From: Geobacter sp. DSM 9736
GTDB lineage: Bacteria; Desulfobacterota; Desulfuromonadia; Geobacterales; Geobacteraceae
Reading direction: 5' to 3'
DNA length: 64,000 nucleotides
Assembly (NCBI RefSeq): GCF_900187405.1
Contig: NZ_LT896716.1
Coordinates: forward strand, 1,116,001 to 1,180,000
The notes below the pieces were generated by a model. That model did no database searches. It worked only from the letters and a program-made list of their open reading frames with translations, and had not been told where the DNA came from. Below, one piece after another: positions 43,080 to 46,134 of the stretch (positions within the stretch are counted from its first letter, which is position 1; the number at the start of each line of letters is the position of its first letter). A program made the translations under genes and the position numbers.

Positions 43080-43144
43080 GAGACAGGACCAAATCAGTTG
43101 AATGAATACCTTTAAGTTACAGCAACATGCACTACACCTTGATT

Positions 43145-43161
43145 CCGGCACGTTCCGTGGA
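43145..43161 (+). promoter_or_regulatory. weak sigma54 promoter candidate for the 43202 gene
   Basis: CCGGCACGTTCCGTGGA keeps GGCACG of the -24 element, but the -12 element reads TGG rather than TGC. It lies 66 bp after the dyad and 41 bp before the ATG. Confidence 0.3.
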
Positions 43162-43201
43162 ATGCCCTCCTTCAACCATTACAGGAAAGGAGGTAATACA
43201 G

Positions 43202-43486
43202 ATGAAGGAAATGAAGAAAACGGCTCTGTATGCAACAACGGCTCTCACGCTGGTGGCCCTGTCGGCCCCGGCTTTCGGGAGAGGGGGTAACCAGGGCAGC
43301 GGCAGGGGCAACGGCAATTGCAGCAACTGCTCCAAGCAGCACCAGGTTAACCCCAAATGCGACGGCACCGGAATGCGTCAACGACAGAGGGACGGTTCCG
43401 GCACGCGGCACAACGTGAACGTGGGCACGACGACGGCGCCCCAAACCACACCGATGACTACCGAAACGACTCCGGCAACTCCATAG
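43202..43486 (+). CDS. small secreted Cys-motif, Gly/Thr-rich protein (94 aa)
   Basis: A signal peptide (residues 1-26, ending SAPAFG) precedes a Gly/Asn-rich stretch, a CSNCSKQHQVNPKC motif with three Cys residues, and a Thr-rich tail (TTTAPQTTPMTTETTPATP). GGAGG lies eight bases before the ATG. It is the first of four consecutive exported-protein genes after the NtrC-type regulator. No family is recognised. Confidence 0.7.
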   Translation: MKEMKKTALYATTALTLVALSAPAFGRGGNQGSGRGNGNCSNCSKQHQVNPKCDGTGMRQRQRDGSGTRHNVNVGTTTAPQTTPMTTETTPATP

Positions 43487-43507
43487 ACAGCAAGGAGCAT
43501 CAACCGC

Positions 43508-44038
43508 ATGAAAAGAGGCCGCCATATCCCCCGTCTCCTCTTCCTGGCACTGGCAGGAAACTTCCTGTTCCTCGTGCCGGTCTACGCCGGTTTTTTCGGT
43601 GGGGATGAGAATGGGAGAAGCGGCCTCGACCTGAATTATGGCTATGATATCAATACTGTCACCACCATTACGGGTAAGGCGGCTTCGCCTCCCCGGCAGA
43701 TTGAACTGGAGCATGTAGTTATCGAGCTTAATACCGCCGGCGAGCCCGTAAACGTCTGTGTCGGTCCCGCCTCGTACTGGCAGGAAAGCGGAATTTCAGT
43801 CAACGTAAACGACGAAATCACCGCAAAGGGTTCAATGGCCCAGGGAAAGGATGGGAAGAACTATCTGATGGCTCAGAAAGTCATCAACCAGACATCGGGA
43901 GCGACCGTAGAACTCCGGTCCGACAGGGGAAACCCGGCATGGTCCGGCCGAGGCATGAATCGCTCCGGGCGCCCCGAAGGTGGAATGCGAATTCGGGGTG
44001 GCGGAATGATGCGCGGCGGAGGGATGATGCGCAGGTGA
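43508..44038 (+). CDS. exported protein with Met/Arg/Gly-rich C-terminal tail (176 aa)
   Basis: A signal peptide (residues 1-27, ending VYAG) is followed by a beta-rich domain (ITGKAASPPRQIELEHVVIE; ITAKGSMAQGKDGKNYLMAQ) that resembles a small OB/barrel domain. The C-terminus has repeated RGGGMMRGGGMMRR. A similar tail ends the product of the gene at 44930. The gap to the previous gene is 21 bp. Confidence 0.7.
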   Translation: MKRGRHIPRLLFLALAGNFLFLVPVYAGFFGGDENGRSGLDLNYGYDINTVTTITGKAASPPRQIELEHVVIELNTAGEPVNVCVGPASYWQESGISVNVNDEITAKGSMAQGKDGKNYLMAQKVINQTSGATVELRSDRGNPAWSGRGMNRSGRPEGGMRIRGGGMMRGGGMMRR

Positions 44039-44061
44039 ACGTGCGCTACACCAGGAGAAAC

Positions 44062-44910
44062 ATGATCACTCAGATTCTAAGACCTCTCGCTCTGTCGATC
44101 TTCATATCAGTGACCCTCCTCCCGTTTAAGAGGGCGCATGGCGAGATTCTGCCCTTCCTAGGTCTCGGTTTCGAATTTACTTCCGGCGACTATGGAACCG
44201 GCACGCGCACAAATACCGTTTTCGTCCCGGTCACGATCGGGGCGGACCTGACGGACCGCTGGGGGGTACTGCTCGAAATCCCCTATATTTACCAGGACAA
44301 CACCAACGTCATCGGCAGACAGTACAACCAGATGCAGATGCAGACAACCAGGATGAAGACGGCGGCTGCGATGGTTCCGGGCTCCGGAAGCATGGGGCGC
44401 ACGGCCTCATCGAATCCGTCTGCCGGCCGGGGAGGACTTGGGGACCTCACGCTCCGTATCGGGTATGTAGCTATTGAGGAGACACGCGCACTTCCCCGGA
44501 TCAAGCCGGTCGCATCCGTGAAGCTCCCAACCGCAGATAAAGATCACGGTCTGGGGACGGGAAAATTCGAGGAAAGCCTCTCTGTAGAATTCTCAAAATG
44601 GATGGGAGACTGGTATGGGTTCATCGAGCCGGGTTACACGTTCCAGGGAAGCTCACCTGCCCTTGCACTGAAGGACTATCCTTTCCTTGACGCAGGTATC
44701 GGATACCAACTGACGAACCGGTTTCGTCCCCTCCTAATTGTGAAATCTTCCGGAGCTCCGCAAGAAGGGGCAACTGCACTTCTGGATGCACGAATCAAAG
44801 GAAAGTATCAGACCACGGCTCAAACCGGCATAGAGGCTTACGGGGCCAAGGGAATCACAACATCGAGCCCCGATTACGCAGTAGGACTTACCATTTACTA
44901 CGATTTCTGA
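44062..44910 (+). CDS. predicted outer-membrane beta-barrel protein (282 aa)
   Basis: A signal peptide (residues 1-28, ending AHGE) precedes alternating amphipathic strands (FLGLGFEFTSGDYG; VFVPVTIGADLTDRWGVLLEIPY; YGFIEPGYTFQG), with the usual final aromatic (YYDF). AGGAG precedes ATG 44062. It resembles the transporter-like barrel proteins common in Geobacter. It may form a channel for the neighbouring secreted proteins, but only position suggests that. Confidence 0.7.
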   Translation: MITQILRPLALSIFISVTLLPFKRAHGEILPFLGLGFEFTSGDYGTGTRTNTVFVPVTIGADLTDRWGVLLEIPYIYQDNTNVIGRQYNQMQMQTTRMKTAAAMVPGSGSMGRTASSNPSAGRGGLGDLTLRIGYVAIEETRALPRIKPVASVKLPTADKDHGLGTGKFEESLSVEFSKWMGDWYGFIEPGYTFQGSSPALALKDYPFLDAGIGYQLTNRFRPLLIVKSSGAPQEGATALLDARIKGKYQTTAQTGIEAYGAKGITTSSPDYAVGLTIYYDF

Positions 44911-44929
44911 AACTACCAAGGAGAATTGC

Positions 44930-45820
44930 ATGAAAAAAAAAGCAGCTCTTACACTCATCGGCGTACTTTTCATTGCGGGTTGCAGCGGCTCAGGCAGCAC
45001 CGGTTCTGCAACACAGATAAGCGGGGCCGTGGCGGATGGCTACCTGCAGAATGCCCTGGTATTCCTCGACAAGAACAGAAATTACCAGCTCGATCCGGGT
45101 GAGCCTTCCACGACCACCGACGCAAACGGAGCATATACTCTCAATGTCGCTCCCGAAGATGTTGGTATTTATCCAATTGTCGCGCTTGCCATCGAAGGAC
45201 AAACCATCGACGCTGACACACCCGGGGTCCCCCTGACCAGCACCTACGTCCTATGCACCCCCGGCGCCGCAGTGTCCGGCACGGTCAATAACTTCATCAG
45301 CCCTTTTTCTACACTTATCCGCGAAAAGCTCGAAGCCAATCCTGGCATGACGGTGGCGGATGCAATAACGCAACTGCGTAACCAACTAAACATGCCCGCC
45401 GGTGTCAACATGATGGGGAACTATGTTGCCGGATCCGCATCAGGGCTGCATGGAACAGAATACCAGGAGATGCACCAGGTAGCCCGTCAGATGGCGGGGC
45501 TGATGGCTGAGCAGTCGGCTCTCGTGATGAACGGAAGAAGCGTCAACACCAACAACTTCCGGAGCATGATGGGGGAAATAAACGATTACCTCCCACAGAT
45601 TGCGGATAATGCCATCGGAGGGGAGGGAATGAACAGCGTGTTCATGAACACCATGCGAGCACGAATGCAGACAGCAATGGAATCACTGCCTGCTTACGGC
45701 GGATTCAGAAACTACTCCGCAACCTTCCGCAGCATGACGAGTGTCACGTATTTCTGGAATTTTTCTGGTGGACGCATGCAACCTCGTGGGGGAACAATGC
45801 GTGGTGGCATGGGAAGATAG
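44930..45820 (+). CDS. exported lipoprotein with carboxypeptidase-like repeat and RGG-Met tail (296 aa)
   Basis: The lipobox LFIAGC (Cys18) marks lipid anchoring. Residues about 27-110 form an Ig-like domain (ISGAVADGYLQNALVFLDKN; DANGAYTLNV). The helical rest contains Met-rich segments, and the C-terminus GGRMQPRGGTMRGGMGR resembles the tail of the 43508 product. AAGGAG precedes the ATG. A terminator follows, so it ends the four-gene run. Confidence 0.75.
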   Translation: MKKKAALTLIGVLFIAGCSGSGSTGSATQISGAVADGYLQNALVFLDKNRNYQLDPGEPSTTTDANGAYTLNVAPEDVGIYPIVALAIEGQTIDADTPGVPLTSTYVLCTPGAAVSGTVNNFISPFSTLIREKLEANPGMTVADAITQLRNQLNMPAGVNMMGNYVAGSASGLHGTEYQEMHQVARQMAGLMAEQSALVMNGRSVNTNNFRSMMGEINDYLPQIADNAIGGEGMNSVFMNTMRARMQTAMESLPAYGGFRNYSATFRSMTSVTYFWNFSGGRMQPRGGTMRGGMGR

Positions 45821-45921: not shown

Positions 45922-46086
45922 CTATTTTCCGGCTTCATCTTTTTCAATTTTCTCTTTCTTGACACCCCGGGCCCCGGGGCTGCATGTGTCGGACATTCAG
46001 GTGGGAACACCGAGGCGGGGCAGGACGTACTTTTGCAGAATAATCCATACTGCGAGAATCCCGAACATTACTAGCAGGTCTTTCAT
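45922..46086 (-). CDS. probable 54-aa selenoprotein (in-frame UGA), membrane-anchored
   Basis: The ATG at 46086 has GGAGGG six bases upstream and a promoter at 46106-46134. One hydrophobic helix (residues 4-23) is followed by YVLPRLGVPT, then UGA at 45999-45997. The frame stays open for 24 more codons (MSDTCSPGARGV, then a Lys/Glu-rich tail) to TAG at 45924-45922. With UGA read as selenocysteine the motif is U-x4-C, like a redox pair. A foldable hairpin lies just after the UGA. If UGA is a stop, a 29-residue peptide results. It would be missed by ordinary gene finders. Confidence 0.6.
45958..45990 (-). promoter_or_regulatory. SECIS-like hairpin after the UGA
   Basis: On the minus strand, GACAC (starting 7 nt after the UGA) pairs with GTGTC. 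A 6-nt bulge and an inner CCC/GGG stem lead to a loop with several G residues. This spacing suits a bacterial selenocysteine insertion element within the coding region. Confidence 0.45.
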
Positions 46087-46105
46087 AGCGCTCCCTCCGC
46101 GTATG

Positions 46106-46134
46106 AATATAGTAAGAATATATAGCATAATCAA
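46106..46134 (-). promoter_or_regulatory. sigma70 promoter for the UGA-containing small gene
   Basis: The minus strand reads TTGATT, a 17-bp spacer and TATATT (5/6), placing the transcription start about 13 nt before the ATG at 46086. Confidence 0.55.

Follow-up and report, generated by a model that had tools for sequence, protein, structure and literature searches.

A UGA-interrupted gene of Geobacter sp. DSM 9736 as a probable member of an uncatalogued family of membrane-anchored selenopeptides

Gene organization at the locus

The window, by which we mean the whole 64,000-nucleotide stretch of Geobacter sp. DSM 9736 DNA analysed here, carries on its minus strand (46086–45922) a candidate selenoprotein gene for a product of 54 residues with U30 and C35. 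The start codon ATG lies at 46086–46084, six bases downstream of a Shine–Dalgarno sequence, GGAGGG (46098–46093). The first 29 codons encode MKDLLVMFGILAVWIILQKYVLPRLGVPT; after the TGA at 45999–45997, which would be read as selenocysteine (Sec) at residue 30, the frame continues as MSDTCSPGARGVKKEKIEKDEAGK and closes with the stop codon TAG (45924–45922). The product would thus consist of a single membrane helix, U30, the segment MSDTC ending in Cys35 (codon 45984–45982), the putative partner thiol in a U-x4-C motif, and a charged tail. The original prediction, made from the sequence of this locus, had described a hidden 54-residue selenoprotein with these parts and a ribosome site; all of them are present, on the minus strand, which it had left unstated. 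An in-frame TTG also occurs upstream within 45922–46134, and relatives keep the ATG at 46086 as their start.

The transcription signals are of uneven value. The promoter that had been claimed for the gene did not hold up well: the sigma-70-like site TTGATT-17-TATATT (46134–46106, minus strand) matches at 9 of 12 positions, 1.2 such sites are expected by chance in the scanned stretch, and the match is no evidence by itself. Downstream of the gene, a consensus scan located an intrinsic-terminator-like stem of ten pairs, nine of them GC (45858–45833, minus strand), which is common to the convergent plus-strand gene; the latter belongs to a series of small Gly/Met-rich secreted or lipoprotein-like frames at 43127–45820.

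AlphaFold2 predicts one helix for the peptide, residues 2–24 (46083–46015), with pLDDT values of 86–87 in this block and 67.7 overall; the tail after the helix is of low confidence, and the model is confident for the helix only. W14, L22, P23, G26 and T29 are invariant among the aligned members, and the motif W..(V/L)(L/I)Q(K/R)..LPR.G..T around the helix end is strongly conserved. By charge pattern and the positive-inside rule, the tail and the selenolate would face the cytoplasm.

Distribution and conservation through the UGA codon

The 54-residue query has a match, with TGA in frame inside it, in 121 of the 147 related genomes, and the loci inspected among these relatives have the same UGA, flanked as in LPRLGVPT-U-MSDSC, mostly with the same spacing to the Cys. 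A profile of 20 diverse members (A2), used for a phylum-wide search, matches 141 of 345 genomes and 99 of 225 genera. Pattern matching against 84,980 species genomes located members in Geobacter, Geomonas, Oryzomonas, Citrifermentans and Geomobilimonas, and also in Desulfobacteraceae, Krumholzibacteriia, Chthonomonadales and Planctomycetales; among sampled genomes, the family is present in 31 of 343 Planctomycetota and 23 of 284 Myxococcota. Overall, about 200 of the bacterial genomes sampled, representing at least five phyla, carry the hidden gene, and a search for its spread on viruses or plasmids found none. Seven genomes (G048, G051, G056, G079, G080, G112 and G139) have two copies each.

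The identity of the aligned codon was counted with every stop read as X, so that TGA was not preferred to TAA or TAG. At 170 distinct loci the codon is TGA in 166, TGT in two, TGC in one and GGG in one, with TAA and TAG at zero. One TGT locus is a junk alignment and the other a Myxococcota Cys form (L083), while the GGG reflects a one-residue alignment shift at a locus (L132) that has UGA adjacent. Divergent members clipped by the profile (L115–L120, L130 and L134) likewise have UGA there, and reading of the Planctomycetota and Myxococcota loci added 29 further TGA codons as well as Cys forms. The spacing to the following Cys is U-x4-C in 147 of the 166 loci and U-x5-C in ten; in nine loci, about 5% of members, no Cys lies nearby. 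The Cys codon at +5 in the U-x4-C members is TGC in 85 and TGT in 62. Between close sequences, third positions account for 61% of the differences before the UGA and 50% after it, compared with 36% past the final stop, a figure that denotes no bias and is drawn from few pairs.

These observations lie far above chance because conservation of the UGA, of the frame after it and of the hairpin extends over hundreds of genomes, and chance read-through of a stop is ruled out by the codon counts together with the downstream conservation. Two readings without Sec have to be weighed. Under the standard code the gene would be an ordinary membrane peptide of 29 residues ending at the UGA, with the rest untranslated; ORF callers find nothing longer, as the original prediction had anticipated, and function is conceivable for a peptide that ends in PT. 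However, TAA or TAG, which had been named beforehand as the result that would speak against a selenoprotein, occupies the codon at none of about 200 loci, protein-like conservation runs past the UGA, and natural Cys forms read through it, some into a DUF302 domain, which makes the 29-residue peptide highly improbable. The other reading involves two cistrons, with a stop at the UGA and re-initiation at the next AUG (UGAAUG). The codon after the UGA is indeed ATG in 105 of 147 aligned loci, but the others have CTG, CTC, GCT, GCC, GTG, ATC and so on, several of which are not usable as starts; moreover, both halves are fused in the Cys forms, and the stop is always TGA, never one of its two synonyms. 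We therefore give re-initiation almost no weight.

Cysteine forms and variant members

Cys homologues, the search for which had been proposed as a check on the prediction, do exist but are rare. Cys stands at the aligned site in about eight members, namely in Planctomycetota (L072/L247, L255, L257, L260 and L262) and Myxococcota (L278 and L281), so that the sample has more than 20 Sec forms for each Cys form. The genome of the Cys form L072 has no selB over the cut-off; selB is present in the genomes of the Sec forms L074, L080 and L081. Two Myxococcota Cys forms, L278 and L281, are fused to DUF302. A Sec form of the same phylum (L283) lies directly before a DUF302 frame and, together with the two fusions, links the two families.

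Several variants depart from the common layout. Four loci (L117, L118, L130 and L134) encode a double-Sec form, ..LPKLGLPS-U-GAPV..(K)RP(I/V)PT-U-DGPSCSIGGQSKK, in which each UGA has its own hairpin, that of the second UGA with a similar G-rich loop. In one genus (g51) there is a second paralogue per genome (L121–L125), FKWVVPRLKPP(T)SFSCPT-UGA-ATKRPHSAGRRNNK-UGA, which is conserved beyond the first UGA and could be a 39-residue protein with a plain stop. The Myxococcota Sec forms L274–L277, L282, L283 and L286 share U(A/M/T).P.PRRS(A/T/V)R, and in several of them a Cys at the extreme C-terminus replaces U-x4-C.

The hairpin downstream of the UGA

A SECIS-like hairpin starting about 7 nt after the UGA had been predicted, and the hairpin is real, with an MFE of −13.9 kcal/mol in the window. 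Its outer stem, GACAC/GTGTC, which begins at that distance, is nevertheless peculiar to the window sequence; what is conserved instead is the core GCCCCGG-GGC-CCGGGGU (45980–45964, minus strand; 17–36 nt past the UGA), a bSECIS-type hairpin of seven pairs with a G-rich apical loop in the conserved register i + j = 54 counted from the UGA.

A hairpin behind the UGA folds in most members. The bSECIS model (PMC13188914) asks for a loop of 3–9 nt, a stem of at least 4 bp, a G in the first two loop bases, a distance of 16–37 nt from the UGA and an MFE of −7.5 kcal/mol or lower. With a slightly looser distance rule (12–37 nt), 92% of 163 sequences conform, and the MFE is −7.5 kcal/mol or lower in 94%. 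Synonymous shuffles yield some hairpin in 49%, against the 92% observed; a single hairpin alone would prove little, as shuffles often give one. Another comparison swapped synonymous codons between sequences at each site, thereby keeping protein and codon usage: a perfect 6-bp stem is found in 120 of 143 U-x4-C sequences, compared with 59.7 ± 4.6 after permutation (maximum 71 in 100 trials).

A fixed-register RNAalifold run over all U-x4-C sequences gave no consensus because the clades use different hairpin registers, and the registers were then analysed singly. In the main register, 73 sequences pair at five or six of six positions, whereas 1000 shuffles of the 3' columns give 20 such sequences on average and never more than 31. 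The paired fraction is 0.70, compared with 0.52 for the 1000 shuffles, which have a maximum of 0.56. A single position can have as many as five pair types; for example, one position has C–G in 43, A–U in 16, G–C in seven, G–U in five and U–G in two sequences, so that 73 of 73 are paired. The register was picked from folds, and hence the paired percentage within it is partly selected, but neither the variety of pair types nor the shuffle controls over all sequences are explained by this selection. The hairpin keeps its pairs through compensatory changes.

Selenocysteine machinery and co-loss with selB

All four genes of the Sec pathway, which the original prediction had suggested looking for, are in the genome: selA (609 bits), selB (379 bits), selC, that is, tRNA-Sec (76 bits), and selD (352 bits), the last of which itself has an in-frame TGA. 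Among the 147 relatives, the gene is present in 115 of 127 genomes with selB over the cut-off, compared with six of 20 without (Fisher p = 1.6e-8, a value that overstates the case as the genomes are related). Twelve selB-positive genomes are without the gene, and most of the six genomes with the gene but no selB over the cut-off are incomplete. One of the genomes with the UGA gene and no selB over the cut-off (G085) is 99% complete and may reflect an assembly gap or a recent loss. Several near-complete genomes of one genus group (g17) are without both the gene and selB. The gene is mostly lost together with selB.

Neighbouring genes and function

Neighbours within 1.5 kb, with identities assigned by Pfam, were collected at 105 flanked loci and lie nearly all on the same strand. 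The commonest is an FmdB-type zinc ribbon (25 loci), followed by ArsR (13), Trx/TlpA (12), YgaP-like TM proteins (seven) and CcdA (six). All 25 FmdB-type genes are on the same strand within about 1 kb, with none elsewhere in the flanks; as genomes contain 2–12 genes of this type, chance would place one beside the selenoprotein gene in no more than about 1% of loci. The FmdB family is reported to include a Sec form (PMC2398784), and in M. tuberculosis a zinc ribbon protein of similar make-up, Rv0991c (Ruc), acts as a redox-regulated chaperone (PMC7448276). Judged from its described architecture, Ruc seems to be a relative of this neighbour; the likeness does not extend to the selenopeptide as a homologue.

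Linkage to putative sulfur genes (SQR-like, persulfide-dioxygenase-like, rhodanese and DsrE) is seen in Planctomycetota and partly in Desulfuromonadaceae. The Planctomycetota members are the most informative in this respect. Three of their Cys forms (L255, L257 and L260) and one Sec form (L251) come right after a metallo-beta-lactamase/rhodanese gene that is persulfide-dioxygenase-like, and precede a gene for an SQR-like flavoprotein, either directly or with a single gene in between. Behind the Cys form L072 lie DsrE, rhodanese-YgaP and TauE genes. In Desulfuromonadaceae (L050–L063 and L069), the gene often occurs with an RND efflux operon, ArsR, YgaP-like TM and MBL genes, and also with rhodanese, thioredoxin and CcdA genes. 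None of the recurring neighbours is present at the window locus, and the sulfur assignment therefore comes from the relatives, with function assigned by homology only. Taken together, the neighbours suggest membrane-tethered thiol or persulfide redox chemistry. A redox function, which had been read from the U-x4-C pair beside a membrane helix, is plausible; we regard sulfur or thiol redox at the membrane as somewhat favoured, and a specific persulfide relay as a more tentative proposal.

Two other functions for a true selenoprotein would also fit part of these data. In the first, Sec and Cys would bind or transfer a metal or metalloid (Hg, As, Cu or Ag) rather than take part in sulfur redox. 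The ArsR-family regulators adjoining 13 loci and the RND efflux operon in Desulfuromonadaceae are consistent with this, as are the soft U/C ligands and the adjoining FmdB zinc ribbon. Nevertheless, ArsR proteins are also reported to sense sulfane sulfur (PMC12423496); the thioredoxin, CcdA, rhodanese, DsrE, SQR-like and persulfide-dioxygenase-like neighbours indicate sulfur/thiol redox, and a metal-binding fold is absent from the peptide. A metal-handling role is accordingly unlikely, although it fares best among the alternatives. In the second, the peptide would serve a larger redox complex in the membrane, as a small subunit or as an assembly factor, with Sec as a structural or cofactor ligand. 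Single-helix small proteins are commonly accessory subunits, and the conserved motif at the helix end would suit such a role, but no one complex is constantly adjacent and the context differs between clades; this possibility appears still more remote.

Relation to known families

We found no credible match for the members scanned in Pfam or NCBIfam (June 2026), no homology in PDB, and no such entry among the 119 families and subfamilies in Table 1 of the May 2026 prokaryotic catalogue (PMC13188914). The family is absent from the 2006 selenoprotein lists of G. sulfurreducens, G. metallireducens and G. uraniumreducens; a 2007 survey of stop codons, with two Geobacter genomes in its set, gave other candidates only, and no earlier description was found in the open-access literature. 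The family is very probably new to the catalogues.

It resembles bacterial selenoproteins in general (PMC13188914) in its in-frame UGA, selABCD and Cys homologues, and in a hairpin right behind the UGA with the loop at 16–37 nt and a G at the loop start. Unlike them, it is a predicted single-pass membrane peptide with no Trx-like fold, and its Sec forms greatly outnumber its Cys forms. The UxxC thioredoxin-fold selenoproteins (Trx, Prx-like and DsbG-like) similarly have Sec and Cys close together and a probable thiol redox function, but the present family has U-x4-C in place of UxxC or CxxU and no Trx domain, only one predicted helix and a short tail. YgaP-like TM proteins (PF11127, DUF2892) resemble the family in their small size, their place in the inner membrane and their K(L)GVP..C tail, and are sometimes encoded adjacent, but have two helices; homology to them, which the shared KLGVP..C tail had prompted us to consider, is not supported by profile comparison (hhalign probability 1.3%). 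The small selenoproteins of NCBIfam (KCU-star NF033934, CC/Se motif NF041239, SaoC NF040734 and TsoA NF045695) are also short and were long unannotated; their motifs differ, and 20 members gave no match to these four models at E ≤ 1.

Conclusions

The original prediction was largely right, given the conserved UGA, the Cys forms, the hairpin and the Sec machinery: the locus almost certainly holds a genuine selenoprotein gene. None of the outcomes that had been named as refuting the prediction was observed, and the family reaches well beyond what had been claimed. Insertion of Sec at the UGA is very likely; it is a step that we infer, as we do the topology, the substrate and the reductant. On the reading that we consider likely as a whole, the gene belongs to an uncatalogued selenopeptide family in which Sec30 and Cys35 form a redox pair for reactive sulfur or disulfides at the membrane. 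SelB would act with tRNA-Sec and the hairpin behind the UGA at 45999 to place Sec at residue 30 of a 54-residue peptide anchored in the inner membrane by its N-terminal helix. The selenolate would lie on the cytoplasmic side and pair with Cys35 for redox, and the most likely substrates of the pair at the membrane would be reactive sulfur species (persulfides, polysulfides or sulfane sulfur) or else disulfides; Sec would attack the oxidized substrate, Cys35 would resolve it as a selenenylsulfide, and thioredoxin or electron flow through CcdA/TlpA could re-reduce the pair.

The deep-Sep paper (PMC12013277) states that all known selenoproteins have Cys homologues and warns that the method may filter out selenoproteins that do not. 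A family with such a ratio of Sec to Cys forms is of the kind that Cys-reliant methods would miss. A broader view, to which we give about even chances, is that these membrane-tethered selenopeptides make up a large and ancient family, dominated by Sec forms, that occurs in most Desulfuromonadia and in scattered members of at least five phyla and that would link thioredoxin with the membrane through a selenium-based persulfide/disulfide relay. The family would have been missed earlier as its genes are short, the UGA lies mid-gene and search methods need abundant Cys homologues. The selenoproteome would gain a family that most of the sampled Desulfuromonadia carry and that neither the newest catalogue nor NCBIfam includes. 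If the sulfur link is true, the family would be a new entry point for selenium into reactive-sulfur metabolism and into bacteria that perform extracellular electron transfer.
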